Assembly (NCBI RefSeq): GCF_000003605.2
Contig: NW_003147387.1
Span: 1-41,925, forward strand
Length of the DNA: 41,925 nt
DNA from: Saccoglossus kowalevskii
Taxonomy: Eukaryota; Hemichordata; Enteropneusta; Harrimaniidae
Direction of reading: 5' to 3'
A program made the translations under genes and the position numbers. The notes under the pieces were generated by a model. The model saw nothing but the letters and a program-made list of their open reading frames with translations. It made no database searches and was not told the origin of the DNA. Positions 749-41,925 of the stretch are shown piece by piece. Numbering within the stretch: position 1 is the stretch's first letter; each line of letters starts with the position of its first letter.

Positions 749-901
749 GTTTGTACTGACTGGCAGCTAAACTTTGAAGTGCTATATGCTAAAACAATGT
801 TACAATCATACTGGACATTATGACGAAAAGAAATCTAAGATTACTTATAATATCCGAAATGACGAGACGGTTTTCACTTTGAACAACATTGTTACAGTAT
901 C

Positions 902-919
902 GTCGCTATAGAGCGCGAC
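902..919. other. 5-bp inverted repeat in the satellite unit (unit 1 example)
   Basis: GTCGC at 902-906 and GCGAC at 915-919 flank an 8-base loop and recur in all units inspected. With the other palindromes it makes the satellite unusually rich in potential hairpins for its AT content. Function unknown. Confidence 0.4.
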
Positions 920-14525: not shown

Positions 14526-14558
14526 CTCGTCATGCTTCACACCACCCTACCCCTTATT

Positions 14559-18332: not shown

Positions 18333-18352
18333 ATTTTTGGTGAGAAGAACTT

Positions 18353-19807
18353 TTATTTCGTAAAATAATCATCAAAATAGCTGGATTCTTTGTTCAGAAC
18401 CCATTGTGGGTGGGCTTCGCAACAGTGGACGAGCCACTCGGATGGCGTGACAGACACAGCTTCACATGCTTCGACAGGGCAGAGCAGTTGCACCGTGTCC
18501 AGAAAAGAGTGGTGAGCTTGGAGATGAGAAACTAGGGCAGGCCATCCAGTAAATTCGCTATTGCAGTCCGCATCAGACACTCGGTGACATGTAACTTCCA
18601 CCTGGTTCAGTTTGTGGAGGCGAGAATCTCTTGTCCTCGACAAGGCAGCCTTAGTTTCAGTATTCACATTCGGTGTGTTTACACTTTGTTCGTCAGCACT
18701 GGTGAAGCTCTCGCAATCAGAAACAATAGTGACATCGTGTGAAAAGCCAGGGACCCTAGTTCGTTTGTGATCTTCAGTGGAGGGAACATAGTCATCTTCT
18801 GCTGGGCGTTTTCCGCTAGCAAGATGGGGAAGAATAGGAGCTTCAGCCACCATATCAGAAATGTCTTCGGGTTCACTACCAACAGTTTCAGATGGTGATA
18901 CACTGGCGGGTGAAGAAGAGATGGCGCCTGGACCAGAAGTAGTTTTCGCAGAATCATGTTTAGAAATACGCAAGATCGGAGGAGAATCGTAATTCATATC
19001 AGATTGAACCGGACAGGCAGGTGAGATTACAGGGTCAGTGATATCAGCCGAATCAGCTGGAGAGGTATCATGGACAGGTTTGGCAGGAGCAGGATCAGAT
19101 GTCCGGCTTGCTTGTGGTGCTGTGGACCACTTGTTCAGAACACTGGCTTTGTTCGCAAAAGAGACTTTACATTGGCGGAAGTTGTGCCCGTTTTCATGGC
19201 ACACAGTACATTTTATGTCATTGGTACAGTTGTCAAGAGAGTGGCCAACTCCAAGACAGCGAAAGCAAACAATTTCTTTGCATTCTTTAGCAAAGTGATC
19301 AACTCCGTGACAGCGGGCACAGATTTTAGGCTGACCGGGATAAGAAATCCAAACATTTCTATTACAGATGCGCTGACGGGGAGGAATATTTCCCCCCAAT
19401 TTAACTTTATATTGACGAATTCCATTAAAGCAAGTAGGAAACTCAGAGTAGACGCATTTTCGTGCAGCAAGAACCTTTCCAAATCTAGATAAAGCATGTT
19501 GCATGTATGAGTCATCTAGATCATTGCCCACGTATGAGGCGGTGACGATAGTGGATTCTTCATATGAAGATGAGGAACAGTCTGCTGAGGCAGCAATTTT
19601 CTCTTCAAAATTTCTTCTGAAGGATAAGGAATGACAGGTGACATCATATTTTGACGGACCAAGCTTTTCAACAGCTTCCAAGTGAAGCTTCACATCAATG
19701 TCGAAGGATTTTAAATAATCAAACACCTGTTTAGGTGTTGCAGATTCAGATTTTAAAACCAAACAAAGAACTCTGTCTTTTCTACCAATAGGCTGAATTC
19801 CAGCCAT
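18353..19807 (-). CDS. LINE B ORF1: gag-like CCHC/C2H2 protein, 484 aa, intact
   Basis: The start is the ATG at 19807 in a good Kozak context (TTGCCATGG), as in C and D. The open frame continues upstream through the UTR into satellite DNA by chance. It has the same length and domain order as LINE C ORF1: N-terminal ZCCHC3-like region, three CCHC knuckles, acidic/Ser-Pro linker and two C-terminal C2H2-like fingers. It differs from C and D by scattered substitutions (for example VTCHSLSF for VTFRSLSF and PPRQRIC for PPRLRIC). The frame is intact although the element cannot move by itself. Nothing suggests host use; relaxed decay of a recent copy is the simplest reading. Confidence 0.88.
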   Translation of the reverse strand: MAGIQPIGRKDRVLCLVLKSESATPKQVFDYLKSFDIDVKLHLEAVEKLGPSKYDVTCHSLSFRRNFEEKIAASADCSSSSYEESTIVTASYVGNDLDDSYMQHALSRFGKVLAARKCVYSEFPTCFNGIRQYKVKLGGNIPPRQRICNRNVWISYPGQPKICARCHGVDHFAKECKEIVCFRCLGVGHSLDNCTNDIKCTVCHENGHNFRQCKVSFANKASVLNKWSTAPQASRTSDPAPAKPVHDTSPADSADITDPVISPACPVQSDMNYDSPPILRISKHDSAKTTSGPGAISSSPASVSPSETVGSEPEDISDMVAEAPILPHLASGKRPAEDDYVPSTEDHKRTRVPGFSHDVTIVSDCESFTSADEQSVNTPNVNTETKAALSRTRDSRLHKLNQVEVTCHRVSDADCNSEFTGWPALVSHLQAHHSFLDTVQLLCPVEACEAVSVTPSEWLVHCCEAHPQWVLNKESSYFDDYFTK

Positions 19808-19871
19808 GGCAACAGAGAGACAAAACAAAAAAGATGAAAACAGCACGAGGCAAAGCCTCGAGCAAGACAAG

Positions 19872-22800: not shown

Positions 22801-25800
22801 TTGAATTTTGCCCAAGCATACCCGGGCCTGATTAGACAGTCATGAAACCTGCCCGTCTGTTGTAAACCCGCCCGATAGAGCCTGGCCATCGTCGAAATTT
22901 GGATACTGAAAGATTTGGTCATCTGAATATCGTACATATTCAGGTTGCCGATTCAATTATTTCTAATATTTGTTTATTTATCGCCCCGCAATTGAGCGGG
23001 GTTATCAAAAATTTGATTATAGACTCATTAGTTGTTCCTCTGCACGGAAATCTTTAGTAAAAGGCGAAAGATTTATGCGGCCTGCAGAAAAACCAGAGTT
23101 AATTCGACATATGGTCGTGGTGTAATACATACGTTTCAGTGACTACAACTTCGGATAAGGTGAGTAAAGTGGGAAAACAAATATCTTTCGATTTTGTGTA
23201 CTATGTGTAATTTCTTACAGAAACTTAGGTGGTTTGTTATTAAAGGCTAGACAAATAATTATGTTATACAAAATACATTATGAGGAACGCTGCCTTGAAT
23301 ATGAGAAATACATAATTTGCCCCTGCTTTCTGACCAATAAACGTTTAAGTCGCGCTCTATAGCGACGATACTGTAACAATGTTGTTCAAAGTGAAAACCG
23401 TCTCGTCATTTCGGATATTATAATTAATCTTAGATTTCTTTTCGGCATAATGTCCAGTATGATTGTAACATTGTTTTAGCATATAGCACTTCAAAGTTTA
23501 GCTGCCAGTCAGTACAAACTGTTGATAGTCAACAATGTAATTAATAGTTTACCTTCATGATTTTTTTAATAACTTGCCCTTTCAGTCGACAGCTACTTCA
23601 ACATATCCCTGTATCCGCTGGTAGAGGGCGCAACTCGTGCGAATTTGATGAGCTATCAAACCAAAGTGTAAATTTCTACAGAAGGTCAGTGCCCGGCCAC
23701 ACAGATGCGCCAATTGGAAGTAATCTGTGAAATAAAAATGAAAAAAACAAACAAACAAAAAACGGCGATGTTGAATTTTGCCCAAGCATACCCGGGCCTG
23801 ATTAGACAGTCATGAAACCTGCCCGTCTGTTGTAAACCCGCCCGATAGAGCCTGGCCTTCGTCGAAATTTGGATACTGAAAGATTTGGTCATCTGAATAT
23901 CGTACATATTCAGGTTGCCGATTCAATTATTTCTAATATTTGTTTATTTATCGCCCCGCAATTGAGCGGGGTTATCAAAAATTTGATTATAGACTCATTA
24001 GTTGTTCCTCTGCACGGAAATCTTTAGTAAAAGGCGAAAGATTTATGCGGCCTGCAGAAAAACCAGAGTTAATTCGACATATGGTTGTGGTGTAATACAT
24101 ACGTTTCAGTGACTACAACTTCGGATAAGGTGAGTAAAGTGGGAAAACAAATATCTTTCGATTTTGTGTACTATGTGTAATTTCTTACAGAAACTTAGGT
24201 GGTTTGTTATTAAAGGCTAGACAAATAATTATGTTATACAAAATACATTATGAGGAACGCTGCCTTGAATATGAGAAATACATAATTTGCCCCTGCTTTC
24301 TGACCAATAAACGTTTAAGTCGCGCTCTATAGCGACGATACTGTAACAATGTTGTTCAAAGTGAAAACCGTCTCGTCATTTCGGATATTATAATTAATCT
24401 TAGATTTCTTTTCGGCATAATGTCCAGTATGATTGTAACATTGTTTTAGCATATAGCACTTCAAAGTTTAGCTGCCAGTCAGTACAAACTGTTGATAGTC
24501 AACAATGTAATTAATAGTTTACCTTCATGATTTTTTTAATAACTTGCCCTTTCAGTCGACAGCTACTTCAACATATCCCTGTATCCGCTGGTAGAGGGCG
24601 CAACTCGTGCGAATTTGATGAGCTATCAAACCAAAGTGTAAATTTCTACAGAAGGTCAGTGCCCGGCCACAAAGATCCGCCAATTGGAAGTAATCTGTGA
24701 AATAAAAATGAAAAAAACAAACAAACAAAAAACGGCGATGTTGAATTTTGCCCAAGCATACCCGGGCCTGATTAGACAGTCATGAAACCTGCCCGTCTGT
24801 TGTAAACCCGCCCGATAGAGCCTGGCCATCGTCGAAATTTGGATACTGAAAGATTTGGTCATCTGAATATCGTACATATTCAGGTTGCCGATTCAATTAT
24901 TTCTAATATTTGTTTATTTATCGCCCCGCAATTGAGCGGGGTTATCAAAAATTTGATTATAGACTCATTAGTTGTTCCTCTGCACGGAAATCTTTAGTAA
25001 AAGGCGAAAGATTTATGCGGCCTGCAGAAAAACCAGAGTTAATTCGACATATGGTTGTGGTGTAATACATACGTTTCAGTGACCACAACTTCGGATAAGG
25101 TGAGTAAAGTGGGAAAACAAATATCTTTCGATTTTGTGTACTATGTGTAATTTCTTACAGAAACTTAGGTGGTTTGTTATTAAAGGCTAGACAAATAATT
25201 ATGTTATACAAAATACATTATGAGGAACGCTGCCTTGAATATGAGAAATACATAATTTGCCCCTGCTTTCTGACCAATAAACGTTTAAGTCGCGCTCTAT
25301 AGCGACGATACTGTAACAATGTTGTTCAAAGTGAAAACCGTCTCGTCATTTCGGATATTATAATTAATCTTAGATTTCTTTTCGGCATAATGTCCAGTAT
25401 GATTGTAACATTGTTTTAGCATATACGCACTTCAAAGTTTAGCTGCCAGTCAGTACAAACTGTTGATAGTCAACAATGTAATTAATAGTTTACCTTCATG
25501 ATTTTTTTAATAACTTGCCCTTTCAGTCGACAGCTACTTCAACACATCCCTGTATCCGCTGGTAGAGGGCGCAACTCGTGCGAATTTGATGAGCTATCAA
25601 ACCAAAGTGTAAATTTCTACAGAAGGTCAGTGCCCGGCCACAAAGATCCGCCAATTGGAAGTAATCTGTGAAATAAAAATGAAAACAAAAAACAAAAAAC
25701 GGCGATGTTCAATTTTGCCCAAGCTTACCCGGGCCTGATTAGACAGTCATGAAACCTGCCCGTCAGTTGTAAACCCGCCCGATAGACCCTAGCCATCGTC

Positions 25801-27914
25801 GAAATTTGGATACTGAAAGATTTGGTCATCTGAATATCGTACATATTCAGGTTGCCGATTCAATTATTTCTAATATTTGTTTATTTATCGCCCCGCAATT
25901 GAGCGGGGTTATCAAAAATTTGATTATAGACTCATTAGTTGTTCCTCTGAACGGAAATCTTTAGTAAAAGGCGAAAGATTTATGCGGCCTGCAGAAAAAC
26001 CAGAGTTAATTCGACATATGGTTGTGGTGTAATACATACGTTTCAGTGACCACAACTTCGGATAAGGTGAGTAAAGTGGGAAAACAAATATCTTTCGATT
26101 TTGTGTACTATGTGTAATTTCTTACAGAAACTTAGGTGGTTTGTTATTAAAGGCTAGACAAATAATTATGTTATACAAAATACATTATGAGGAACGCTGC
26201 CTTGAATATGAGAAATACATAATTTGCTCCTGCTTTCTGACCAATAAACGTTTAAGTCGCGCTCTATAGCGACGATACTGTAACAATGTTGTTCAAAGTG
26301 AAAACCGTCTCGTCATATCGGATATTATAATTAATCTTAGATTTCTTTTCGGCATAATGTCCAGTATGATTGTAACATTGTTTTAGCATATAGCACTTCA
26401 AAGTTTAGCTGCCAGTCAGTACAAACTGTTGATAGTCAACAATGTAATTAATAGTTTACCTTCATGATTTTTTTAATAACTTGCCCTTTCAGTCGACAGC
26501 TACTTCAACATATCCCTGTATCCGCTGGTAGAGGGCGCAACTCGTGCGAATTTGATGAGCTATCAAACCAAAGTGTAAATTTCTACAGAAGGTCAGTGGC
26601 CGGCCACAAAGATCCGCCAATTGGAAGTAATCTGTGAAATAAAAATGAAAAAAACAAACAAACAAAAAACGGCGATGTTGAATTTTGCCCAAGCATACCC
26701 GGGCCTGATTAGACAGTCATGAAACCTGCCCGTCTGTTGTAAACCCGCCCGATAGAGCCTGGCCATCGTCGAAATTTGGATACTGAAAGATTTGGTCATC
26801 TGAATATCGTACATATTCAGGTTGCCGATTCAATTATTTCTAATATTTGTTTATTTATCGCCCCGCAATTGAGCGGGGTTATCAAAAATTTGATTATAGA
26901 CTCATTAGTTGTTCCTCTGCACGGAAATCTTTAGTAAAAGGCGAAAGATTTATGCGGCCTGCAGAAAAACCAGAGTTAATTCGACATATGGTTGTGGTGT
27001 AATACATACGTTTCAGTGACCACAACTTCGGATAAGGTGAGTAAAGTGGGAAAACAAATATCTTTCGATTTTGTGTACTATGTGTAATTTCTTACAGAAA
27101 CTTAGGTGGTTTGTTATTAAAGGCTAGACAAATAATTATGTTATACAAAATACATTATGAGAAACGCTGCCTTGAATATGAGAAATACATAATTTGCCCC
27201 TGCTTTCTGACAATAAACGTTTAAGTCGCGCTCTATAGCGACGATACTGTAACAATGTTGTTCAAAGTGAAAATCGTCTCGTCATTTCGGATATTATAAT
27301 TAATCTTAGATTTCTTTTCGGCATAATGTCCAGTATGATTGTAACATTGTTTTAGCATATAGCACTTTAAAGTTTAGCTGCCAGTCAGTACAAACTGTTG
27401 ATAGTCAACAATGTAATTAATAGTTTACCTTCATGATTTTTTTAATAACTTGCCCTTTCAGTCGACAGCTACTTCAACATATCCCTGTATCCGCTGGTAG
27501 AGGGCGCAACTCGTGCGAATTTGATGAGCTATCAAACCAAAGTGTAAATTTCTACGGAAGGTCAGTGCCCGGCCACAAAGATCCGCCAATTGGAAGTAAT
27601 CTGTGAAATAAAAATGAAAAAAAACAAACAAACAAAAAACGGCGATGTTGAATTTTGCCCAAGCATACCCGGGCCTGATTAGACAGTCATGAAACCTGCC
27701 CGTCTGTTGTAAACCCGCCCGATAGAGCCTGGCCATCGTCGAAATTTGGATACTGAAAGATTTGGTCATCTGAATATCGTACATATTCAGGTTGCCGATT
27801 CAATTATTTCTAATATTTGTTTATTTATCGCCCCGCAATTGAGCGGGGTTATCAAAAATTTGATTATAGACTCATTAGTTGTTCCTCTGCACGGAAATCT
27901 TTAGTAAAAGGCGA
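19872..27914 (-). repeat. 970-bp satellite array, inverted orientation (about 8.3 units)
   Basis: The left-hand satellite continues here as its reverse complement; landmark positions recur at 20997, 21967, 22937, 23907, 24877, about 25847, 26814 and 27784. The array starts in mid-unit at the LINE B breakpoint and ends at 27914 inside the LINE target site (AAAAGGCGA), where LINE C begins. Most units are near identical. The unit around 25.2-26.2 kb is the most diverged, with an extra base near 25425 and changes near 25680-25800 in the A-rich tract and the GATAGACCCTAG segment. The last half unit before LINE C carries the insertion-associated variants (GAGAAACG, AAAATCGTC, ACTTTAAAG, TACGGAAGG). 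Confidence 0.97.
20249..20309 (+). promoter_or_regulatory. Splice-site-like pair in the satellite (one unit shown)
   Basis: On the strand opposite to the LINE-sense strand of the satellite, each unit reads AAG|GTGAGTAAAG and, 61 bases after the GT, TTTCTTACAG|AA. Donor and acceptor match the metazoan consensus well and the span suits a short intron. A 53-codon open stretch ends with TAA 5' of the donor, so no coding role is evident. Chance cannot be excluded. Confidence 0.25.
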
Positions 27915-28183
27915 TTTTTAGTTTGTAGGAAAAATCAATTTAACTTATCTTGAAACAGATGTGCAGAGGATCAAACATATACAAATGAACTGCAGGAGCC
28001 TCCTACTAGCAGGCTGGTCTCACCAGTTCTCGCCACAAGAGGGTACGATCCTCCCTACTGTAAAACTCCTGCTGAAATTAAATATTTAGGGAACAAATGT
28101 GTTGTACTTGGAGGGATGTATCGAGAAAAGTTAACTCGAAAAGTTGAATAGATCAGGCATAGAATAGTGGTTACAAGACAAAT
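27915..28183 (-). other. 3' UTR of LINE C
   Basis: These 269 bases follow the ORF2 stop. They contain a folded element (27992-28072) and end in AAAAAT directly against the target. The terminal A/T-rich 40 bases resemble the LINE E tail in layout. No canonical AATAAA is present on the sense strand. Confidence 0.75.
27992..28072 (-). ncRNA. Conserved folded 3' UTR element of LINE C
   Basis: On the sense strand (minus), GCAGGAG at the 5' end pairs with CTCCTGC at the 3' end (28066-28072 with 27992-27998). Inside, AGTAGG pairs with CCTGCT with one G-U. The hairpin CTGGT-GAG-ACCAG lies at 28014-28026, directly beside the inner stem. LINE E, from another family, has the same hairpin with three compensatory pair changes and the same GAG loop. 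This supports a selected RNA structure, probably recognised by the element's own reverse transcriptase (inference). It is a cis-acting part of the element RNA, not a separate gene. Confidence 0.65.
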
Positions 28184-31100
28184 TCATGACAAAATGGTGG
28201 CATACCCAGTCTGTGTTTTTTGGACGACAGGACCCCATCTGAAGAAGAAATCTGGTCTTGCCAAACGGAGAAAATCAGTTTTCAAACGTGTTTTAATAGA
28301 GATCTTTACTTGTTGCAATAGTTGGTCCTGAGAAAGATGAATATTTTCAAATGCCGATTTGCATCGAGACTTCCAGATGTGCAATTTGACGATGTTAATC
28401 AAATAGAGTGCTGTACTCGATGGAAAGGATGAAGGTGACGCATCAGATATGCTATAGAAAATTAAGTTCAGATCACAAGCAGATATAATATTGAACCATT
28501 TAAAGAACAAATTATCCAGCCAAGACCACAAGAAAGCGGCAAGGTGGCAGGTGATGAACATGTGAATCATAGTTTCAGGGGAAGTACAGGTCGCACGTGG
28601 GCATTTGGAACATGAAACATATCCCCATTTGTGCATTACTGATGTTGTAACGACAGCACGGTGAACAATTTTCCAGGACAGACAGATCATATTGTTTTCC
28701 AGAATACACGAGTGCATACGATGCCAAATCAAAGGCCAGTCAAGGTTCGGGTTTTCTCCCACGACCTTTGGGTAGATTACCGTATTTCTGGAGAGGTGAT
28801 CGGACAATTCTCTAGTTGATGATGTCTCCCAGTTGATGCTTGGGCTTTTCCTCATGATCTGTTTAACCAATTCAGTTGTTGTTTTGTACCAAACTGGGCA
28901 CGATTCAAAGTGAGGACTAGAATTAGACCAAAGGTGAGGAAGATAGCGTCTGAGTTCAGAGGCACAGTATGCTGTGAAATAAAGGTTGCAAGGTTTAGTC
29001 TGAAAAGAGATTTTTATGCTTTTCAGAAGAAGTGACATAGCTTTTGAGGGCAGATGTGATAGGCCCCAACCACCCTTTTCCTTCGGTAAGCAGATCACAT
29101 CTCTTCGGACGTGTTCTTTGCGTCCTCCCCAAAAAAAACCCAAAGATATCGGCCATGATTGACTTCCTAATTGGAAGGGGGCAGGGGAAGAGAGGAGCAA
29201 TATAGAAAAAGAGTGGCAAAGCAACAGAGTTCAGAAGAGTTGTCTTACCGGCATAAGTGAGATTTCTTGATTTCCAAGAATTTAGCACATGCTTCAGTTT
29301 GATTTGCCGATCATACCAATTCAAAGCAGACATATCAGAATTTGAAATCCAGACACCGTTAACTTTTAGTTTATTGCTGTTAAAGGTGAATTGGCAAGGC
29401 GAGTCACTACGGTGCTTCCACCTGCCAAGCCACAGACCTTTGCACTTAGATTTATTCAGACAAGAGCCCGAGGCTTTAGAAAATCTATCAGACAACATGA
29501 TAAGGTGGTTGAGAGATGACAGGTCCGATAGTGAGGCTGTATTATCATCAGCATACTGCACAAGCTTACACTCATCAGTTGATCCAGGAAGGTAAAAGCC
29601 CTTGATCTTTTGGCAGTTCCTCACAGCGGCTGCAAATGGCTCGATGAATAGCACATAAAGCAGGGGAGAAAGAGGGCATCCTTGGCGAACTCCTCTAGAT
29701 AACATGATGGGGGGTGACAAATGACCATTAACCAGAACAGAGCTGGTGATACCATTATACAGACATGATATGAAGTGACTGAATTGGGGACCAAAATTCA
29801 TACGAAAAAGAACTTTGTGCAGAAAACTCCATTCCACCTGGTCAAAGGCTTTCTGTTGGTCCAATGAGATAAGCAGACCTGACATATTACGATCATTAGC
29901 ATGAAACACAATATCACGGATGATCTGAATGTTTTCTTGGATCGATCTTCCAGAGACACCACATGTTTGAAAGGGAGATAACAGACTAGAGATGACAGGT
30001 TTCAGGCGGTTACAGAGAGATTTGGAGATCAGCTTGTAGTCCACATTCAAAAGCGATATAGGACGTTTGTTCTTTGGATCGAGGTGAGAGTTTTCATTGC
30101 CAGGTTTGGTGACATCAATATCCTTATTGATAAGGGTGATGACGCCTTTCTTTTGAGATGAAGAAAGATGACCCGAAGAAAGCTCTTCATTGATGACGTC
30201 AGTCAGATCATATTTCAGAAAGTGCCAGCAATGAATATAAAATTCCTTTGGCAAACCATCCCTTCCGGGTGTTTTGTTGTTCTCCATGCCCCTAAGGGCA
30301 TGTTCAATTTCAGAAGTTTTCAGAGGTGATTCCAAAGAATCACGCTGGCTACTTGAAAGACTGTGAGTCACCTGTGAAAGAAAAAAATCCTGATCTTCTT
30401 CGTCAAGTGATGATTTAGAAGTGAACAGAGATGCATAGAAGTTGTGAATTGTATTCAAAATATTTTTCTGAGAATGGTGAATGTCTCCATTCGTGTCTCT
30501 GATGGCAGAAATTACTTTCCTTTTTCCGCGACGGCGTTCACGACCAAGAAAATAACGAGAGCACTTCTCATTTTCATCAAGATTCTGAACCCGCGCACGG
30601 ATTTTGGCGCCTTCGAGATTAGACATATTCAGGGAGTTGATTTGATCCCTTACAGAAGAATACTGCTCAAGGCTGGATTGGGACCGGTCCCCCTGATTCA
30701 GCTTGGACGTCAGATGCTGAAGCTTATCATTAAGATATTTAAGTTTGACCTTTCTTGCATGAGATTTTTGACAAGCATATGAAATGAGACAAGATTTACA
30801 ACGGTCTTTAACCATATCCCACCATTCACTGATGTTATCAAAGGCCGGCTTCAGAGTCTTCCATCTTTCATAGTCGTCTTCGATGGATCTTATAATCTCC
30901 GGATCCTGGAAGAGTGAGACGTTACATTTCCATACTCCAGGTCCCCGAGCAGGGGAATTAAAGGCTTTAAGCAGAATACATACAGCATCATGATCAGAAA
31001 GAGTGAAAGCAGAAATAGTCGCAGAAGATACATTCAGGGATGAAGATACATACAATCGGTCAATCCTAGATGAAACAGAGTTGTTCTTGTTGCGCCAGGT

Positions 31101-31673
31101 GAATTGTGATGTAGAAGGATGATGCTTTCGCCAAACATCCACAAGACTAAGTTCAGAGCAAAGATCACCCAACTCTAAGCCCCCTACATAGGAATGGGAG
31201 CATGTTAGAGAACCTCCCAACTTGTCCATACTACTCTCAATACAATTAAAGTCCCCACCAAGAATCAGGGGGTAGTTACCTCCAAGAAATTGATGAAGCG
31301 AGTCAAGGAATTTTTTCCTCTGAGAAGGCATATTAGGAGCATACACAGAAATAACTTTAAAAAGGTTTGTGTTCCACTTCACAACACTTGATACCACTCT
31401 GCCACTATCATCAGAAACCGCGTTGTCAAATGAAACATTACATTTCGGTGAAAGGAGGATCCCCACACCTCTGCTGTTGTTCGAGCCGAGACTCCATATC
31501 GCACTACCACCCCATTCTCTCTCCCACTGCTTTCCTTCCTCAAGAGAACAGACATGTGCCTCCTGGACAAGGATGATATCAAAGTTAGATTCATGACAGT
31601 ATTTGAAAAAAAGAGACCTTTTCATATAATCTTTTAAACCATTTATGTTTATTGAAATAATAGAGACAGACAT
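28184..31673 (-). pseudogene. LINE C ORF2: APE endonuclease-reverse transcriptase, ~1163 codons, one frameshift
   Basis: The frame starts at ATG 31673, 20 bases after the ORF1 stop. Endonuclease: N9/N11, E38 (QEAH), D141 and N143 (GGDFNC), D205, and S226-D227-H228. Linker ~240-450. RT: NKRPISLLN (~535-543), motif A SLDQQKAFD with D605, motif B RQGCPLSP (663-670), and motif C YADD (707-710, at 29544-29555). The frame breaks at about codon 845 in an A8/C4 run (29127-29138, plus strand) with one extra base. The protein continues in another frame from about 29224 to the stop at 28184 and includes the C-x4-C-x7-H-x4-C motif typical of this lineage's C-terminus (near 28560-28605). No RNase H motif was seen. 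As written, the protein keeps the endonuclease and RT core but loses the C-terminus. LINE D shares the same +1. Confidence 0.92.
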
Positions 31674-31693
31674 ATTTTTGGTGAGAAGAACCT

Positions 31694-33148
31694 TTATTTC
31701 GTAAAATAATCATCAAAATAGCTGGATTCTTTGTTCAGAACCCATTGTGGGTGGGCTTCGCAACAGTGGACGAGCCACTCGGATGGCGTGACAGACACCG
31801 CTTCACATGCTTCGACAGGGCAGAGCAGTTGCACCGTGTCCAGAAAAGAGTGGTGAGCTTGGAGATGAGAAACCAGGGCAGGCCATCCAGTAAATTCGCT
31901 ATTGCAGTCCGCATCAGACACTCGGTGACATGTAACTTCCACCTGGTTCAGTTTGTGGAGGCGAGAATCTCTTGTCCTCGACAAGGCAGCCTTAGTTTCA
32001 GTATTCACATTCGGTGTGTTTAGACTTTGTTCGTCAGCACTGGTGAAGCTCTCGCAATCAGAAACAATAGTGACATCGTGTGAAAAGCCAGGGACCCTAG
32101 TTCGTTTATGATCTTCAGTGGAGGGAACATAGTCATCTTCTGCTGGGCGTTTTCCGCTAGCAAGATGGGGAAGAATAGGAGCTTCAGCCACCATATCAGA
32201 AATGTCTTCAGGTTCACTACCAACAGTTTCAGATGGTGATACACTGGCGGGTGAAGAAGAGATGGCGCCTGGACCAGAAGTAGTTTTCGCAGAATCATGT
32301 TTAGAAATAGGCAAGATCGGAGGAGAATCGTAATTCATATCAGATTGAACCGGACAGGCAGGTGAGATTACAGGGTCAGTGATATTAGCCGAATCAGCTG
32401 GAGAGGTATCATGGACAGGTTTGTCAGGAGCAGGATCAGATGTCCGGCTTGCTTGTGGTGCTGTGGACCACTTGTTCAGAACACTGGCTTTGTTCGCAAA
32501 AGAGACTTTACATTGGCGGAAGTTGTGCCCGTTTTCATGGCACACAGTACACTTTATGTCATTGGTACAGTTGTCAATAGAGTGGCCAACTCCAAGACAG
32601 CGAAAGCAAACTATTTCCTTGCATTCTTTAGCAAAGTGATCAACTCCGTGACAGCGGGCACAGATTTTAGGCTGACCGGGATAAGAAATCCAAACATTTC
32701 TGTTACAGATCCGTAGACGGGGAGGAATATTTCCCCCCAATTTAACTTTATATTGACGAATTCCATTAAAGCAAGTAGGAAACTCAGAGTAGACGCATTT
32801 TCGTGCAGCAAGAACCTTTCCAAATCTAGATAAAGCATGTTGCATGTATGAGTCATCTAGATCATTGCCCACGTATGAGGCAGTGACGATAGTGGATTCT
32901 TCATATGAAGATGAGGAACAGTCTGCTGAGGCAGCAATTTTCTCTTCAAAATTTCTTCTGAAGGATAAGGAACGAAAGGTGACATCATATTTTGACGGAC
33001 CAAGCTTTTCAACAGCTTCCAAGTGAAGCTTCACATCAATGTCGAAGGATTTTAAATAATCAAACACCTGTTTAGGTGTTGCAGATTCAGATTTTAAAAC
33101 CAAACAAAGAACTCTGTCTTTTCTGCCAATAGGCCGAATTCCAGCCAT
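31694..33148 (-). CDS. LINE C ORF1: gag-like CCHC/C2H2 protein, 484 aa
   Basis: The frame starts at ATG 33148 in TTGCCATGG; the open extension upstream begins at a non-ATG codon in the 5' UTR. N-terminal ~150 residues: ZCCHC3-like, probably RRM-related. CCHC knuckles: C163/C166/H171/C176, C181/C184/H189/C194 and C200/C203/H208/C213. Linker 220-400 is Ser/Pro/acidic with KR at 333-334 and 348-349, a possible bipartite nuclear signal at the same place as in LINE A. C-terminal fingers: C407-x7-C415-x12-H428-x4-H433 and C443-x4-C448-x12-H461-x4-H466. The frame is intact and nearly identical to LINEs B and D. Predicted role: coats the LINE RNA and joins ORF2 in the retrotransposition complex. The C-terminal fingers could contact target DNA or RNA; this is not shown. 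Confidence 0.92.
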   Translation of the reverse strand: MAGIRPIGRKDRVLCLVLKSESATPKQVFDYLKSFDIDVKLHLEAVEKLGPSKYDVTFRSLSFRRNFEEKIAASADCSSSSYEESTIVTASYVGNDLDDSYMQHALSRFGKVLAARKCVYSEFPTCFNGIRQYKVKLGGNIPPRLRICNRNVWISYPGQPKICARCHGVDHFAKECKEIVCFRCLGVGHSIDNCTNDIKCTVCHENGHNFRQCKVSFANKASVLNKWSTAPQASRTSDPAPDKPVHDTSPADSANITDPVISPACPVQSDMNYDSPPILPISKHDSAKTTSGPGAISSSPASVSPSETVGSEPEDISDMVAEAPILPHLASGKRPAEDDYVPSTEDHKRTRVPGFSHDVTIVSDCESFTSADEQSLNTPNVNTETKAALSRTRDSRLHKLNQVEVTCHRVSDADCNSEFTGWPALVSHLQAHHSFLDTVQLLCPVEACEAVSVTPSEWLVHCCEAHPQWVLNKESSYFDDYFTK

Positions 33149-33340
33149 GGCAACAGAGAGACAAAACAAAAAAGATGAAAACAGCACGAGGCAAAGCCTC
33201 GAGCAAGACAAGTCCAATAACCAGCAAGCAAACTGAAGGCAGCAGCACACGTGAGAGGACAGCAGCGAATCAGAAAATATCAAACGATGATCAAAGCAAG
33301 AAGAGAATTACTTACAGGATCCAGTGACTTGGTAACAGCG
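33149..33340 (-). promoter_or_regulatory. 5' UTR of LINE C
   Basis: This is the 192-bp leader from the target junction to the ORF1 ATG. A perfect hairpin, CGAGGC-TTT-GCCTCG on the sense strand (33187-33201), lies about 40 bases before the ATG. That is the same position as a different 6-bp hairpin in LINE A. The stretch after it is U/C-rich. An internal promoter is expected because a site-inserted LINE must carry one or be read through from the satellite; no core motif is recognisable. Confidence 0.55.
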
Positions 33341-34310
33341 AAGATTTATGCGGTCTGCAGAAAAACCAGAGTTAATTCGACATATGGTTGTGGTGTAATA
33401 CATACGTTTCAGTGACCACAACTTCGGATAAGGTGAGTAAAGTGGGAAAACAAATATCTTTCGATTTTGTGTACTATGTGTAATTTCTTACAGAAACTTA
33501 GGTGGTTTGTTATTAAAGGCTAGACAAATAATTATGTTATACAAAATACATTATGAGAAACGCTGCCTTGAATATGAGAAATACATAATTTGCCCCTGCT
33601 TTCTGACCAATAAACGTTTAAGTCGCGCTCTATAGCGACGATACTGTAACAATGTTGTTCAAAGTGAAAATCGTCTCGTCATTTCGGATATTATAATTAA
33701 TCTTAGATTTCTTTTCGGCATAATGTCCAGTATGATTGTAACATTGTTTTAGCATATAGCACTTTAAAGTTTAGCTGCCAGTCAGTACAAACTGTTGATA
33801 GTCAACAATGTAATTAATAGTTTACCTTCATGATTTTTTTAATAACTTGCCCTTTCAGTCGACAGCTACTTCAACATATCCCTGTATCCGCTGGTAGAGG
33901 GCGCAACTCGTGCGAATTTGATGAGCTATCAAACCAAAGTGTAAATTTCTACGGAAGGTCAGTGCCCGGCCACAAAGATCCGCCAATTGGAAGTAATCTG
34001 TGAAATAAAAATGAAAAAAACAAACAAACAAAAAACGGCGATGTTGAATTTTGCCCAAGCATACCCGGGCCTGATTAGACAGTCATGAAACCTGCCCGTC
34101 TGTTGTAAACCCGCCCGATAGAGCCTGGCCATCGTCGAAATTTGGATACTGAAAGATTTGGTCATCTGAATATCGTACATATTCAGGTTGCCGATTCAAT
34201 TATTTCTAATATTTGTTTATTTATCGCCCCGCAATTGAGCGGGGTTATCAAAAATTTGATTATAGACTCATTAGTTGTTCCTCTGCACGGAAATCTTTAG
34301 TAAAAGGCGA
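33341..34310 (-). repeat. Single satellite unit between LINE C and LINE D
   Basis: One complete 970-bp unit, permuted so that it starts and ends at the LINE target cut (AAGATTTATG... to ...AAAAGGCGA). It carries the insertion-associated variants GGTCTGCAG, GAGAAACG, AAAATCGTC, ACTTTAAAG and TACGGAAGG. Confidence 0.97.
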
Positions 34311-34526
34311 TTTTTAGTTTGTAGGAAAAATCAATTTAACTTATCTTGAGACAGATGTGCAGAGGATCAAACATATACAAATGAACTGCAGGAGCCTCCT
34401 ACTAGCAGGCTGGTCTCACCAGTTCTCGCCACAAGAGGGTACGATCCTCCCTACTGTAAAACTCCTGCTGAAAATAAATATTTAGGGAACAAATGTGTTG
34501 TACTTGGAGGGATGTATCGAGAAAAG
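34311..34526 (-). other. 3' UTR of LINE D
   Basis: Nearly identical to the LINE C 3' UTR, including the terminal AAAAAT at the target. The ORF2 stop used by the shifted frame is at 34527; the stop homologous to that of C would lie upstream, near 34590. Confidence 0.7.
34388..34468 (-). ncRNA. Conserved folded 3' UTR element of LINE D
   Basis: Same fold as in LINE C: outer GCAGGAG/CTCCTGC stem (34388-34394 with 34462-34468) and hairpin CTGGT-GAG-ACCAG at 34410-34422. Sequence is unchanged from C across the stems. Confidence 0.6.
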
Positions 34527-37500
34527 TTAACTCGAAAAGTTGAATAGATCAGCATAGAATAGTGGTTTACAAGACAAATTCATGACAAAATGGCGGCATA
34601 CCCAGTCTGTGTTTTTGGACGACAGGACCCCATCTGAGAGAAATCTGGTCTTGCCAACGGTGAAATCAGTTTTCAAACGTGTTTTAATAGAGATCTTTAC
34701 TTGTTGCAATAGTTGGTCCTGAGAAAGATGAATATTTTCAAATGCCGATTTGCATCGAGACTTCCAGATGTGCAATTTGACGATGTTAATCAAATAGAGT
34801 GCTGTACTCGATGGAAAGGATGAAGGTGACGCATCAGATATGCTATAGAAAATTAAGTTCAGATCACAAGGAGATATAATATTGAACCATTTAAAGAACA
34901 AATTATCCAGCCAAGACCACAAGAAAGCGGCAAGGTGGCAGGTGATGAACATGTGAATCATAGTTTCAGGGGAAGTACAGGTCGCACGTGGGCATTTGGA
35001 ACATGAAACATATCCCCATTTGTGCATTACTGATGTTGTAACGACAGCACGGTGAACAATTTTCCAGGACAGACAGATCATATTGTTTTCCAGAATACAC
35101 GAGTGCATACGATGCCAAATCAAAGGCCAGTCAAGGTTCGGGTTTTCTCCCACGACCTTTGGGTAGGTTACCGTATTTCTGGAGAGGTGATCGGACAATT
35201 CTCTAGTTGATGATGTCTTCCAGTTGATGCTTGGGCTTTTCCTCACGATCTGTTTAACCAATTCAGTTGTTGTTTTGTACCAAACTGGGCACGATTCAAA
35301 GTGAGGACTAGAATTAGACCAAAGGTGAGGAAGATAGCGTCTGAGTTCAGAGGCACAGTATGCTGTGAAATAAAGGTTGCAAGGTTTAGTCTGAAAAGAG
35401 ATTTTTATGCTTTTCAGAAGAAGTGACATAGCTTTTGTGAGCAGATGTGATAGGCCCCAACCACCCTTTTCCTTCGGTAAGCAGATCACATCTCTTCGGA
35501 CGTGTTCGTTGCGTCCTCCCCCAAAAAAACCCAAAGATATCGGCCATGATTGACTTCCTAATTGGAAGGGGGCAGGGGAAGAGAGGAGCAATATAGAAAA
35601 AGAGTGGCAAAGCAACAGAGTTCAGAAGAGTTGTCTTACCGGCATAAGTGAGATTTCTTGATTTCCAAGAATTGAGCACATGCTTCAGTTTGATTTGCCG
35701 ATCATACCAATTCAAAGCAGACATATCAGAATTTGAAATCCAGACACCGTTAACTTTTAGTTTATTGCTGTTAAAGGTGAATTGGCAAGGCGAGTCACTA
35801 CGGTGCCTCCACCTGCCAAGCCACAGACCTTTGCACTTAGATTTATTCAGACAAGAGCCCGAGGCTTTAGAAAATCTATCAGACAACATGATAAGGTGGT
35901 TGAGAGATGACAGGTCCGATAGTGAGGCTGTATTATCATCAGCATACTGCACGAGCTTACACTCATCAGTTGATCCAGGAAGGTAAAAGCCCTTGATCTT
36001 TTGGCAGTTCCTCACAGCGGCTGCAAATGGCTCGATGAACAGCACATAAAGCAGGGGAGAAAGAGGGCATCCTTGGCGAACTCCTCTAGATAACATAATG
36101 GGGGGGTGACAAATGACCATTAACCAGAACAGAGCTGGTGATACCATTATACAGACATGATATGAAGTGACTGAATTGGGGACCAAAATTCATACGAAAA
36201 AGAACTTTGTGCAGAAAACTCCATTCCACCTGGTCAAAGGCTTTCTGTTGGTCCAATGAGATAAGCAGGCCTGACATATTACGATCATTAGCATGAAACA
36301 CAATATCACGGATGATTTGAATGTTTTCTTGGATCGATCTTCCAGAGACACCACATGTTTGAAAGGGAGATAACAGACTAGAGATGACAGGTTTCAGGCG
36401 GTTACAGAGAGATTTGGAGATCAGCTTGTAGTCCACATTCAAAAGCGATATAGGACGTTTGTTCTTTGGATCGAGGTGAGAGTTTTCATTGCCAGGTTTG
36501 GTGACATCAATATCCTTATTGATAAGGGTGATGACGCCTTTCTTTTGAGATGAAGAAAGATGACCGGAAGAAAGCTCTTCATTGATGACGTCAGTCAGAT
36601 CATATTTCAGAAAGTGCCAGCAATGAATATAAAATTCCTTTGGCAAACCATCCCTTCCGGGTGTTTTGTTGTTCTCCATGCCCCTAAGGGCATGTTCAAT
36701 TTCAGAAGTTTTCAGAGGTGATTCCAAAGAATCACGCTGGCTACTTGAAAGACTGTGAGTCACCTGTGAAAGAAAAAAATCCTGATCTTCTTCGTCAAGT
36801 GATGATTTAGAAGTGAACAGAGATGCATAGAAGTTGTGAATTGTATTCAAAATATTTTTCTGAGAATGGTGAATGTCTTCATTCGTGTCTCTGATGGCAG
36901 AAATTACTTTCCTTTTTCCGCGACGGCGTTCACGACCAAGAAAATAACGAGAGCACTTCTCATTTTCATCAAGATTCTGAACCCGCGCACGGATTTTGGC
37001 GCCTTCGAGATTAGACATATTCAGGGAGTTGATTTGATCCCTTACAGAAGAATACTGCTCAAGGCTGGATTGGGACCGGTCCCCCTGATTCAGCTTGGAC
37101 GTCAGATGCTGAAGCTCATCATTAAGATATTTAAGTTTGACCTTTCTTGCATGAGATTTTTGACAAGCATATGAAATGAGACAAGATTTACAACGGTCTT
37201 TAACCATATCCCACCATTCACTGATGTTATCAAAGGCCGGCTTCAGAGTCTTCCATCTTTCATAGTCGTCTTCGATGGATCTTATAATCTCCGGATCCTG
37301 GAAGAGTGAGACGTTACATTTCCATACTCCAGGTCCCCGAGCAGGGGAATTAAAGGCTTTAAGCAGAATACATACAGCATCATGATCAGAAAGAGTGAAA
37401 GCAGAAATAGTCGCAGAAGATACATTCAGGGATGAAGATACATACAATCGGTCAATCCTAGATGAAACAGAGTTGTTCTTGTTGCGCCAGGTGAATTGTG

Positions 37501-38065
37501 ATGTAGAAGGATGATGCTTTCGCCAAACATCCACAAGACTAAGTTCAGAGCAAAGATCTCCCAACTCTAAGCCCCCTACATAGGAATGGGAGCATGTTAG
37601 AGAACCTCCCAACTTGTCCATACTACTCTCAATACAATTAAAGTCCCCACCAAGAATCAGGGGGTAGTTACCTCCAAGAAATTGATGAAGCGAGTCAAGG
37701 AATTTTTTCCTCCGAGAAGGCATATTAGGAGCATACACAGAAATAACTTTAAAAAGGTTTGTGTTCCACTTCACAACACTTGATACCACTCTGCCACTAT
37801 CATCAGAAACCGCGTTGTCAAATGAAACATTACATTTCGGTGAAAGGAGGATCCCCACACCTCTGCTGTTGTTCGAGCCGAGACTCCATATCGCACTACC
37901 ACCCCATTCTCTCTCCCACTGCTTTCCTTCCTCAAGAGAACAGACATGTGCCTCCTGGACAAGGATGATATCAAAGTTAGATTCATGACAGTATTTGAAA
38001 AAAAGAGACCTTTTCATATAATCTTTTAAACCATTTATGTTTACTGAAATAATAGAGACGGACAT
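34527..38065 (-). pseudogene. LINE D ORF2: APE endonuclease-reverse transcriptase with several frameshifts
   Basis: The frame starts at ATG 38065 (MSVSIISVNINGL) and contains the same endonuclease residues and RT motifs as LINE C. It breaks first in the G-run at 36100-36106 (seven G; C has six), between RT motifs A and B. It continues in a second frame with RQGCPLSP and YADD (about 36186 to 35520). It breaks again at 35518-35529, where C5/A7 replaces C4/A8 of LINE C: the same total length, hence the same +1. It ends in a third frame with small deletions near 34610-34670 that replace the normal C-terminus and extend to the stop at 34527. The Cys/His motif (CPRATC...HMFITC) is still readable. 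Not functional as written; homopolymer assembly errors could account for part of this. Confidence 0.92.
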
Positions 38066-38085
38066 ATTTTTGGTGAGAAGAACCT

Positions 38086-39540
38086 TTATTTCGTAAAATA
38101 ATCATCAAAATAGCTGGATTCTTTGTTCAGAACCCATTGTGGGTGGGCTTCGCAACAGTGGACGAGCCACTCGGATGGCGTGACAGACACCGCTTCACAT
38201 GCTTCGACAGGGCAGAGCAGTTGCACCGTGTCCAGAAAAGAGTGGTGAGCTTGGAGATGAGAAACCAGGGCAGGCCATCCAGTAAATTCGCTATTGCAGT
38301 CCGCATCAGACACTCGGTGACATGTAACTTCCACCTGGTTCAGTTTGTGGAGGCGAGAATCTCTTGTCCTCAACAAGGCAGCCTTAGTTTCAGTATTCAC
38401 ATTCGGTGTGTTTAGACTTTGTTCGTCAGCACTGGTGAAGCTCTCGCAATCAGAAACAATAGTGACATCGTGTGAAAAGCCAGGGACCCTAGTTCGTTTG
38501 TGATCTTCAGTGGAGGGAACATAGTCATCTTCTGCTGGGCGTTTTCCGCTAGCAAGATGGGGAAGAATAGGAGCTTCAGCCACCATATCAGAAATGTCTT
38601 CGGGTTCACTACCAACAGTTTCAGATGGTGATACACTGGCGGGTGAAGAAGAGATGGCGCCTGGACCAGAAGTAGTTTTCGCAGAATCATGTTTAGAAAT
38701 AGGCAAGATCGGAGGAGAATCGTAATTCATATCAGATTGAACCGGACAGGCAGGTGAGATTACAGGGTCAGTGATATCAGCCGAATCAGCTGGAGAGGTA
38801 TCATGGACAGGTTTGTCAGGAGCAGGATCAGATGTCCGGCTTGCTTGTGGTGCTGTGGACCACTTGTTCAGAACACTGGCTTTGTTCGCAAAAGAGACTT
38901 TACATTGGCGGAAGTTGTGCCCGTTTTCATGGCACACAGTACACTTTATGTCATTGGTACAGTTGTCAATAGAGTGGCCAACTCCAAGACAGCGAAAGCA
39001 AACTATTTCTTTGCATTCTTTAGCAAAGTGATCAACTCCGTGACAGCGGGCACAGATTTTAGGCTGACCGGGATAAGAAATCCAAACATTTCTGTTACAG
39101 ATCCGTAGACGGGGGGGAATATTTCCCCCCAATTTAACTTTATATTGACGAATTCCATTAAAGCAAGTAGGAAACTCAGAGTAGATGCATTTTCGTGCAG
39201 CAAGAACCTTTCCAAATCTAGATAAAGCATGTTGCATGTATGAGTCATCTAGATCATTGCCCACGTATGAGGCGGTGACGATAGTGGATTCTTCATATGA
39301 AGATGAGGAACAGTCTGCTGAGGCAGCAATTTTCTCTTCAAAATTTCTTCTGAAGGATAAGGAACGAAAGGTGACATCATATTTTGATGGACCAAGCTTT
39401 TCAACAGCTTCCAAGTGAAGCTTCACATCAATGTCGAAGGATTTTAAATAATCAAACACCTGTTTAGGTGTTGCAGATTCAGATTTTAAAACCAAACAAA
39501 GAACTCTGTCTTTTCTGCCAATAGGCCGAATTCCAGCCAT
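38086..39540 (-). CDS. LINE D ORF1: gag-like CCHC/C2H2 protein, 484 aa
   Basis: The start is ATG 39540 in TTGCCATGG. Same length and domain order as LINE C ORF1: N-terminal ZCCHC3-like region, three CCHC knuckles, bipartite basic motif in an acidic linker, and two C-terminal C2H2-like fingers with all eight ligands kept. Differences from C are a few substitutions (for example ARKCIYSE for ARKCVYSE, ALLRTRD for ALSRTRD, and DSADITD for DSANITD). The frame is intact although ORF2 is broken. ORF2 begins 20 bases after the stop. Confidence 0.92.
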   Translation of the reverse strand: MAGIRPIGRKDRVLCLVLKSESATPKQVFDYLKSFDIDVKLHLEAVEKLGPSKYDVTFRSLSFRRNFEEKIAASADCSSSSYEESTIVTASYVGNDLDDSYMQHALSRFGKVLAARKCIYSEFPTCFNGIRQYKVKLGGNIPPRLRICNRNVWISYPGQPKICARCHGVDHFAKECKEIVCFRCLGVGHSIDNCTNDIKCTVCHENGHNFRQCKVSFANKASVLNKWSTAPQASRTSDPAPDKPVHDTSPADSADITDPVISPACPVQSDMNYDSPPILPISKHDSAKTTSGPGAISSSPASVSPSETVGSEPEDISDMVAEAPILPHLASGKRPAEDDYVPSTEDHKRTRVPGFSHDVTIVSDCESFTSADEQSLNTPNVNTETKAALLRTRDSRLHKLNQVEVTCHRVSDADCNSEFTGWPALVSHLQAHHSFLDTVQLLCPVEACEAVSVTPSEWLVHCCEAHPQWVLNKESSYFDDYFTK

Positions 39541-39732
39541 GGCAACAGAGAGACAAAACAAAAAAGATGAAAACAGCACGAGGCAAAGCCTCGAGCAAGA
39601 CAAGTCCAATATCCAGCAAGCAAACTGAAGGCAGCAGCACACGTGAGAGGACAGCAGCGAATCAGAAAATATCAAACGATGATCAAAGCAAGAAGAGAAT
39701 TACTTACAGGATCCAGTGACTTGGTAACAGCG
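39541..39732 (-). promoter_or_regulatory. 5' UTR of LINE D
   Basis: 192 bp, nearly identical to the LINE C leader, with the same CGAGGC-TTT-GCCTCG hairpin (about 39579-39593) upstream of the ATG. It abuts the satellite target at 39733. Confidence 0.55.
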
Positions 39733-40703
39733 AAGATTTATGCGGTCTGCAGAAAAACCAGAGTTAATTCGACATATGGTTGTGGTGTAATACATACGTT
39801 TCAGTGACCACAACTTCGGATAAGGTGAGTAAAGTGGGAAAACAAATATCTTTCGATTTTGTGTACTATGTGTAATTTCTTACAGAAACTTAGGTGGTTT
39901 GTTATTAAAGGCTAGACAAATAATTATGTTATACAAAATACATTATGAGAAACGCTGCCTTGAATATGAGAAATACATAATTTGCCCCTGCTTTCTGACC
40001 AATAAACGTTTAAGTCGCGCTCTATAGCGACGATACTGTAACAATGTTGTTCAAAGTGAAAATCGTCTCGTCATTTCGGATATTATAATTAATCTTAGAT
40101 TTCTTTTCGGCATAATGTCCAGTATGATTGTAACATTGTTTTAGCATATAGCACTTTAAAGTTTAGCTGCCAGTCAGTACAAACTGTTGATAGTCAACAA
40201 TGTAATTAATAGTTTACCTTCATGATTTTTTTATAACTTGCCCTTTCAGTCGACAGCTACTTCAACATATCCCTGTATCCGCTGGTAGAGGGCGCAACTC
40301 GTGCGAATTTGATGAGCTATCAAACCAAAGTGTAAATTTTTTACGGAAGGTCAGTGCCCGGCCACAAAGATCCGCCAATTGGAAGTAATCTGTGAAATAA
40401 AAATGAAAAAAACAAACAAACAAAAAACGGCGATGTTTGAATTTTGCCCAAGCATACCCGGGCCTGATTAGACAGTCATGAAACCTGCCCGTCTGTTGTA
40501 AACCCGCCCGATAGAGCCTGGCCATCGTCGAAATTTGGATACTGAAAGATTTGGTCATCTGAATATCGTACATATTCAGGTTGCCGATTCAATTATTTCT
40601 AATATTTGTTTATTTATCGCCCCGCAATTGAGCGGGGTTATCAAAAATTTGATTATAGACTCATTAGTTGTTCCTCTGCACGGAAATCTTTAGTAAAAGG
40701 CGA
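39733..40703 (-). repeat. Single satellite unit between LINE D and LINE E
   Basis: One complete unit of 971 bp, permuted at the LINE target cut as in 33341-34310 and carrying the same insertion-associated variants. It has small indels near 40230, 40340 and 40437. Confidence 0.96.
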
Positions 40704-40952
40704 TTTTTGATTTAGGAGGTTAAATCAATCAATCAATCATTCATCAAGAAGACGAAATGAGATTACAGGCCCCTCCTAGGCAGGCCAGCCTCGCTGGATC
40801 TCACCACATAAGACTTCGAGTCCTCCTGCCTGATGTTATGTAGCCTGAATGTCTATGGAAAAGTCCAAAAGCAACAGAAACAGAGATGTGTAACTTTGAA
40901 TTGATTGCGCTAATCGATGAACAGTAGTGATGCTGAGCTCGGGCCATTATGA
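40704..40952 (-). other. 3' UTR of LINE E
   Basis: On the sense strand it ends with four GATT-type repeats, TTTAACCTCC and CAAAAAT against the target. A folded element at 40778-40831 matches that of C and D in layout. A short microsatellite-like tail instead of poly(A) is common in several LINE groups. Confidence 0.7.
40778..40831 (-). ncRNA. Conserved folded 3' UTR element of LINE E
   Basis: On the sense strand AGGCAGG pairs with CCTGCCT (40825-40831 with 40778-40784). The hairpin CCAGC-GAG-GCTGG (40785-40797) sits directly beside this stem, and AGGACT-CGA-AGTCTT forms a further hairpin in between. Against LINE C the short hairpin differs at three base pairs, all compensated. The loop GAG and the following CCTGC are identical. 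Confidence 0.65.
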
Positions 40953-41925
40953 TTAAGTTGGAGAACTGGGTTGATTGGTCAGGTGGAGTGGTTGCCAAAG
41001 GGAGACGTATTTCGCTCTGGAGAAACGCAGTTGATCAGTCTGGAGTCGTCTTTTGATGTCTTCATTGATGTTCAAAATGGCCGATTCAGATGACAAGTGG
41101 ATGTTTTCAAAGGCGGCTTTACATCTGGTCTTCCAAATATGGAGTTTAACTAAGTTAATGATGTAAAGGGCGGAGTTGTTGGGAAATGACGTGTGCACGG
41201 GGTCGGCTAAGCTGTAGATGATGAGGTTGGATGTACAGACGTTTAAGAGACCAAAGTGACGAAAAATGAAGCTTTCCACCCAAGACCATAGGGAAGCCGA
41301 AAAATCGCAAGAAATAAACATGTGATGTATTGTCTCTGGCATAGTACAAGAGAGACGAGGACACATTTGACTGGTGGCGTATCCCCATCTATGCATCATA
41401 ATGGTGGTGGTAAGTGCATTATGGATTATTCTCCAAGACAGGTCCCTCATGTTCATGTCCAGAAGGGGGGCATGAACTCTGTGCCAAATAGTGTTCCAGT
41501 CGAGACAGCCCTTCAACTCCATCACACGTGGGTATATAGAAGCTTGATTCAGGAGTAAGCCATATAATTCTTTCGTGGTGGCTTTATTGCAAATAATGTT
41601 GTTGTCCATTCTATGTACTGTACGAGCAAGGGTGATGATAGAAGCATACCAGGGAGGTTCCGGTGGGAAGTGTGGGCCAATGTTTGACCACATGTTCGGC
41701 AGAAGCCACCTGAGATCTGAGGCACAGTATGCCTTGGTGAAATAGCAGCAGGGACGATCATGGAAGCATGAGAAGACAGTTTTCAACAGCAGAGCATTTG
41801 CCATGCTGTGGAGATGTACGAGGCCCCAACCCCCCTTCGTCATAGGCAGATGAATAACATCGCGGCGGACCTTTTCCTTTCTTTCTTCCCCAAAGAAGCG
41901 GAATATATCAACTTGAATTTGTTTT
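40953..41925 (-). CDS. LINE E ORF2, C-terminal part (partial, runs off window)
   Basis: The frame is open from the window edge (entering at 41924) to the stop at 40953; the ATG at 41843 is internal. Upstream of it the frame reads DIFRFFGEERKEKVRRDVI, which aligns with LINE C across its frameshift site and so defines the uninterrupted frame there. The rest matches the family 2 C-terminus: KGGWGL, AYCASDLR, LDWNTIWHR, LSWRIIH, and the Cys/His motif C-x4-C-x7-H-x4-C followed by LWSW, then VKLHIWKTRCKAAFENIHLS. No lesion is visible in this part. The C-terminal Cys/His region is needed for retrotransposition in related LINEs; its role here is inferred. Confidence 0.88.
   Translation of the reverse strand, partial: KQIQVDIFRFFGEERKEKVRRDVIHLPMTKGGWGLVHLHSMANALLLKTVFSCFHDRPCCYFTKAYCASDLRWLLPNMWSNIGPHFPPEPPWYASIITLARTVHRMDNNIICNKATTKELYGLLLNQASIYPRVMELKGCLDWNTIWHRVHAPLLDMNMRDLSWRIIHNALTTTIMMHRWGYATSQMCPRLSCTMPETIHHMFISCDFSASLWSWVESFIFRHFGLLNVCTSNLIIYSLADPVHTSFPNNSALYIINLVKLHIWKTRCKAAFENIHLSSESAILNINEDIKRRLQTDQLRFSRAKYVSLWQPLHLTNQPSSPT

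Follow-up and report, generated by a model that had tools for sequence, protein, structure and literature searches.

Two LINE families joined to one base of tandem U5 small nuclear RNA genes in Saccoglossus kowalevskii

Contig NW_003147387.1 of the hemichordate Saccoglossus kowalevskii raises the question of why long interspersed nuclear elements (LINEs) of more than one kind are joined to a 970-bp tandem repeat at one and the same base. The window, by which we mean the whole of this stretch (41,925 bp), is an entire contig (C3795) of a genome assembly of 572,110,611 bp in 4830 contigs. A sequence-only reading had regarded the LINEs as specialists for a 970-bp satellite; the specialism holds for 12 of 12 recent copies, but what passed for an anonymous satellite consists of tandemly arrayed genes for the spliceosomal U5 small nuclear RNA (snRNA). 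The elements very probably represent two related, L1-like LINE families with an apurinic-like endonuclease (APE) that are specific for U5 and insert by precise target-primed reverse transcription.

An Rfam search of the window gave 24 matches to U5 (RF00020), 21 of them whole genes (86-99 bits) and three of them half genes at LINE joins (40-45 bits), and a self-BLAST revealed the repeat period of 970 bp, with two arrays in opposite orientation and LINEs interrupting them. About 65 bp upstream of U5 lies the element TACTCACCnTATCC, which the array unit compared has in common with a solitary U5 gene located on contig C4724; elements of this kind are known as the proximal sequence element (PSE) of snRNA promoters. 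Read in the orientation of U5 and of the LINEs, the empty site is CATAAATCTT/TCGCCTTTTACTAAAG, its right-hand side beginning with TCGCC and the slash falling between nucleotides 34 and 35 of the U5 match; the Rfam structure line places this position in the closing stem of loop 1, a single pair below the loop. Since the junction is inside the U5 coding region, every insertion splits a U5 gene. The window is arranged as follows (ORF, open reading frame; RT, reverse transcriptase).

1-12837, plus strand: U5 array with a 970-bp unit, 13 units and part of another (self-BLAST, unit map, RF00020).
132-149, plus strand: PSE-like element, lying some 65 bp before the first U5 match (197-316).
9896-10015, plus strand: U5 gene, one of the window's three top scorers (98.8 bits), in which the equivalent of the insertion site is 9929/9930.
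12838-16990, plus strand: LINE A, 5' part of a family 2 element, 4153 bp, entering at CATAAATC; ORF1 13080-14525, endonuclease 14526-16013, broken RT 16132-16587 and 16430-17005.
16991-19871, minus strand: LINE B, family 1 fragment covering element positions 129-3026, 98.3% identical to C.
19864-27914, minus strand: U5 array, 8 units and part of another, in opposite orientation to that at 1-12837.
27915-33340, minus strand: LINE C, family 1, full length, 5426 bp, flush in U5; ORF1 31694-33148, ORF2 in two frames, 28995-31673 and 28184-29230.
33341-34310, minus strand: single U5 unit between D and C, in the order U5 3' half, spacer, promoter region, U5 5' half; half U5 match 34225-34338.
34311-39732, minus strand: LINE D, family 1, full length, 5422 bp, flush in U5; ORF1 open, ORF2 in three pieces.
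39733-40703, minus strand: single U5 unit between E and D; half U5 match 40618-40732.
40704-41925, minus strand: LINE E, family 2, 3' part, 1222 bp, leaving the contig end; ORF2 C-terminus 40953-41924.

The boundaries that the sequence-only reading had placed on C, D and the start of E, all on the minus strand, are exact to the base, and so are its junctions. C and D both read CATAAATCTT/LINE/TCGCC, and uninterrupted empty sites do exist (42 on three contigs, 21 of them in the window); E ends in the same join, AAAAA/TCGCC, and A joins at CATAAATC, 2 bp short of that point. Beyond the window, the recent 3' joins are identical in 12 of 12 cases, with exactly five A in both families, while the on-target 5' joins are flush in family 1 (6/6) and minus 2 bp in family 2 (4/4). 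No target-site duplication accompanies these joins, and the LINEs ending at the site run in the sense direction of U5. The junction sequence AAAAATCGCCTTTTACTAAAGATTT, with up to two mismatches, occurs 13 times genome-wide, at the 12 recent LINE/U5 joins and one relic LINE join, and the reversed control under the same conditions occurs nowhere, which shows that the junction is not due to chance. A junction scan of a viral contig collection found none.

Three copies that lack their 5' part (B, C191:26149 and C2012:2162) join elsewhere in the unit, with an exact overlap of 0, 4 and 1 bp, respectively. These values, read by eye, led us to drop the microhomology of 7-10 bp that BLAST overlaps had indicated at the three irregular joins. 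For a further three of the 16 copies (C191:1, C2012:32488 and E) the 5' side is beyond the contig end.

The 16 copies in the array map fall into two families on the three array contigs (C3795, C191 and C2012). Family 1 (n=9) consists of B, C, D and six further copies, and family 2 (n=7) of A, E and five further copies. On C191 and C2012, an A-type 5' part is followed by an E-type 3' part in single elements of about 5.43-5.45 kb, so that A and E belong to one family. A third recent family for E, which had been considered, was dropped on this account; the earlier claim of at least two families stands, the kinship of A and E having been missed. In family 2, both ends lie in U5 in the copies at C191:2286-7710, C191:15460-20908 and C2012:25220-19774, and in the last of these neither ORF is interrupted (481 and 1169 aa). 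Copies within a family differ by 0.4-1.9%, with one five-site comparison set aside, and identity between the families amounts to 55% for ORF2, 47% for ORF1, 65% for the RT and 49% for the endonuclease; as had been noted, the E protein is about half different from that of C (47% identical over 314 aa). The last 120 bases are largely different between the families.

Both ORF2s carry the Pfam domains Exo_endo_phos and then RVT_1, with E-values of 1.2e-9 and 1.8e-35 in family 2 and of 4e-11 and 7.6e-35 in family 1, and zf-RVT is found in family 2. Among solved relatives, the LINE-1 ORF2 protein matches family 2 ORF2 best (E 3.6e-77), R2 proteins being weaker (8.2e-18). This domain order is that of APE-type, L1-like retrotransposons without long terminal repeats (non-LTR), to which both families can be assigned. 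A zf-CCHC match above cut-off is present in family 2 ORF1, and family 1 ORF1, 47% identical to it, has no Pfam match of its own; a separate ORF1 with CCHC knuckles is a trait of invertebrate Tx1/L1 relatives. A quick tree of 46 proteins, made of both families and 44 of the 120 listed relatives (of 351 found), two of them from lancelets, places family 1, family 2 and the protein P0001 in one clade, with a Shimodaira-Hasegawa-like approximate likelihood ratio (SH-aLRT) of 100. No protein named Tx1 is among the 120 listed of the 351 relatives, and scans of viral contig and genome contig collections found no relatives of the C ORF2.

Specificity was assessed by DNA searches of the genome with the 3' ends of both families and with the 5' 4.1 kb of family 2, and the counts include the query copies. 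The 3' kb of family 1 gave eight matches, namely seven recent copies, all in U5 arrays, and one relic; the 3' end of family 2 gave nine, namely five recent copies, all in U5 arrays, and four relic pieces on contig C1645. All 12 recent 3' ends are joined to U5 at the identical base and confined to the arrays on C3795, C191 and C2012. The 5' 4.1 kb of family 2 gave 26 matches: six recent family 2 copies, every one within an array, and a remainder made up of cross-matches to family 1 and of relics on the contigs C1645 and C4461. Every copy of the queried stretches known from the array map was recovered. Recent copies in these searches are confined to one site of one repeat, as is characteristic of a target-specific LINE, and none was found in the unrelated DNA that the sequence-only reading had named as evidence against itself.

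A genome-wide U5 search, which scored the best 47 of 32,916 candidates, listed 45 matches above cut-off, all on the three array contigs or C4724: 42 whole genes of at least 86 bits (41 in arrays and one solitary), one hybrid that includes a LINE fragment, and two half genes. This list lacks half genes that the Rfam search had detected in the window, so low-scoring copies are undercounted, and all counts are lower bounds because the array contigs (41,925, 44,677 and 32,488 bp) end within LINEs or units. The solitary gene (C4724:136378-136496) has the top U5 score among the matches listed, 105.7 bits; it is uninterrupted, its flanks are diverged and its coding part is nearly identical to that of the array unit. 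Within the window, the array U5 gene at 7018 has a mutated loop 1 sequence (CGTCTTTTAC), and some of the uninterrupted array genes may be non-functional.

Older copies are seen in a fossil U5 array on C1645 (784486-796830 of an 850-kb contig), whose decayed LINEs belong to families 1 and 2 and to one further type. The 13th AAAAATCGCCTTTTACTAAAGATTT join is located here (793796-793820, junction 793816), after a heavily decayed LINE within the decayed U5 array; among the proteins compared, the best match of this LINE is narrowly P0001. Family 1, family 2 and the relic show loose similarity over a stretch of the 3' untranslated region, a possible binding site of the RT.

How such insertions arise can be proposed from the joins. 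The LINE endonuclease would itself recognize the U5 coding sequence and nick the antisense strand after GGCGA, one bp below loop 1, and the 3' end freed at the nick would prime reverse transcription of the LINE RNA; it is the 3' join that points to target-primed reverse transcription from a nick at this position. The second strand would then be cut flush in family 1 or 2 bp back in family 2, either of which leaves no target duplication. In this proposed order of nicking, the inserted LINE would come to lie in the sense of U5 behind the U5 promoter region of the split gene, from which it may be transcribed, and the specificity of both families would stem from a common U5-specific ancestor.

A wider version of the scheme, possible though doubtful in our judgment, holds that the whole clade, that is, both families, the relic and the P0001 lineage, is ancestrally U5-specific and a passenger of the U5 transcript. 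The first 34 nt or so of an RNA made from the U5 promoter would be U5 sequence, and its far end may reach into the U5 3' half; pairing of that half with the nicked target would yield the invariant junctions, and the U5 5' half of the donor would be written into the new site, as could be reflected in the flanks of the LINEs. At U5 nucleotide 21, about 13 bp upstream of the site, allele A is present in 10 of 10 LINE 5' flanks and in 9 of 42 uninterrupted sites (Fisher p 7e-6, one gapped site left out, the cells not being independent), and the solitary gene on C4724 also has it. Old insertions would account for this pattern, as would conversion between filled units or the copying of the flank from a U5-LINE transcript.

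Several observations weigh against U5-specific insertion by two related families, the allele A pattern among them. Three of the 13 observed 5' ends are off target, and so are two of the three relic ends read on C1645, the latter probably due to deletions. On C4461, a decayed internal family-2-like piece, of which neither end is present, has no U5 detected within the 7 kb read. None of the nine family 1 copies has a fully open ORF2, and the grouping of the two families as sisters, which the sequence-only reading had proposed to check by a tree, is drawn with a support of only 59, against 100 for the clade that includes P0001. Promoter use, nicking and expression are proposals based on sequence. 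The genome search scores the best candidates only, and a search with the U5 unit first missed the 13 units of the window array at 1-12837, so that absence elsewhere is not absolute. The copies also sit in arrays that exchange DNA, and 12 joins are consequently fewer than 12 proven events. Two family 1 copies, 191c (C191:32142-37505) and 2012a (C2012:11445-6083), lack the same stretch of ORF2, about 60 bp long, yet show 43 differences in 5363 sites.

This last group of observations leads to the explanation that competes most directly, namely that each family inserted once, long ago, after which unequal crossing-over and gene conversion multiplied the insertion and its flanks, the constant junction being a product of array amplification. 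The shared deletion and the allele A of the LINE flanks speak for it, as does the likeness of C and D, which together with their adjoining units are 99.2% alike over 7397 bp and so do not automatically count as two events. However, two families with unlike 5' joins and a third, decayed LINE meet the same 3' base, which amounts to at least three insertion events (family 1, family 2 and the relic family), and copies of one family occupy different unit haplotypes. C and D also differ by 40 substitutions in 5420 sites, whereas the three units next to them show 1-2 substitutions in 970, though conversion could keep units alike. The ORFs carry fewer amino-acid changes than expected under neutrality: silent and changing polymorphisms number 30 and 30 in ORF1 and 40 and 50 in ORF2 of family 1, and 18 and 28 in ORF1 and 37 and 49 in ORF2 of family 2, and the ratio of changing to silent polymorphism per site (pN/pS) between copies is 0.30-0.47, with pairwise ratios of 0.17-0.59 and 2 of 38 pairs not significant at 0.05. 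Between C and D, ORF1 and the first part of ORF2 have 15 silent and eight changing differences, which disfavors mere duplication, but the ORF2 tail has one silent and 10 changing, and the pair sharing the deletion stands at 0.37 where a mere duplicate should be neutral; the ratio is therefore no proof that every copy is an event of its own. When tested, C and D proved compatible with a composite duplication. On balance we regard one insertion per family as unlikely, and consider that more than three insertions probably took place and that array exchange probably multiplied some copies.

Two further explanations are far less credible. That E, and with it family 2, reached the site solely through recombination with a family 1 copy, the other outcome that the sequence-only reading had set against itself, would account for the five-A tail and the 3' base common to both families; complete family 2 copies nevertheless have a 5' join of their own in four of four cases, and the last 120 bases are largely different, which makes it very improbable. 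Misassembly of repetitive DNA is an equally improbable source of the arrangement. The three array contigs are short and end inside LINEs or units, and there are single-base homopolymer frameshifts as well as an inverted junction between A and B, but the same junctions recur on three contigs and in several unit haplotypes, and once with a decayed LINE inside the 850-kb C1645. What the sequence-only reading observed is confirmed, and its interpretation is partly supported, U5-specific target-primed insertion by two related families being the reading we retain.

The two irregularities just mentioned deserve a description of their own. At 16990/16991 the truncated A on the plus strand meets the truncated B on the minus strand, inverted relative to it, the 5' side of B meeting spacer and not the target, and the orientation of the U5 array flips there too; this is either a rearrangement or a misassembly. 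C (at about 29131) and D (at about 35522) each have one extra base in the same T/G homopolymer of ORF2, T8G4 in one and T7G5 in the other, which is either an assembly error or a shared frameshift.

Elements of comparable habit are known. Keno is placed in the Tx1 clade, and R2 has another type of endonuclease. The accessible text of PMC4640811 describes Keno as a non-LTR element with an apurinic-like endonuclease in animal U2 snRNA genes; it shares the endonuclease type and the choice of an snRNA gene with the present families and differs in its target, U2 rather than U5 (RF00020). Utopia, according to the same source, has several families kept in U2 genes, sometimes within one array with many genes disrupted, and in this it resembles the present case; its endonuclease is restriction-like and its target U2. 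The DNA transposons Dada-U1 and Dada-U6 also occupy specific sites inside snRNA genes (PMC3706591, PMC4640811, in the passages accessible), but they are not retrotransposons, having a DDE transposase and 6-7 bp target duplications (PMC3706591). R2 and R1 insert in a target-specific manner into tandem, essential 28S rRNA genes (accessible part of PMC3706591); here too a tandem essential RNA gene is hit, the target being U5 instead. In the open full-text literature, covered by titles and the first lines of abstracts and with subscription journals and Repbase mostly outside it, no report of insertion into U5 genes was found. The term 'U5 snRNA' is absent from the accessible text of PMC3706591 and PMC8869645, and the sole snRNA passage in that of PMC13188248 concerns U2. 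No earlier description of U5 as a LINE target was thus found in the literature covered, and U5 joins U1, U2 and U6, the snRNA genes already known as homes of mobile elements (PMC4640811, accessible part).

The choice of site is telling for the biology of these elements, as a LINE aimed at the stem beside loop 1 has a target that hardly mutates, and yet every insertion splits a U5 gene. Loop 1 of U5, which holds the exons together in splicing, ranks with the most highly conserved RNA segments of eukaryotes, and the insertion-site sequence is present in nearly all of them. Two families use one base of this gene in a host with 41 whole array U5 genes listed, and their enzymes could, in principle, provide a precise integrase for a site that nearly all eukaryotes possess.

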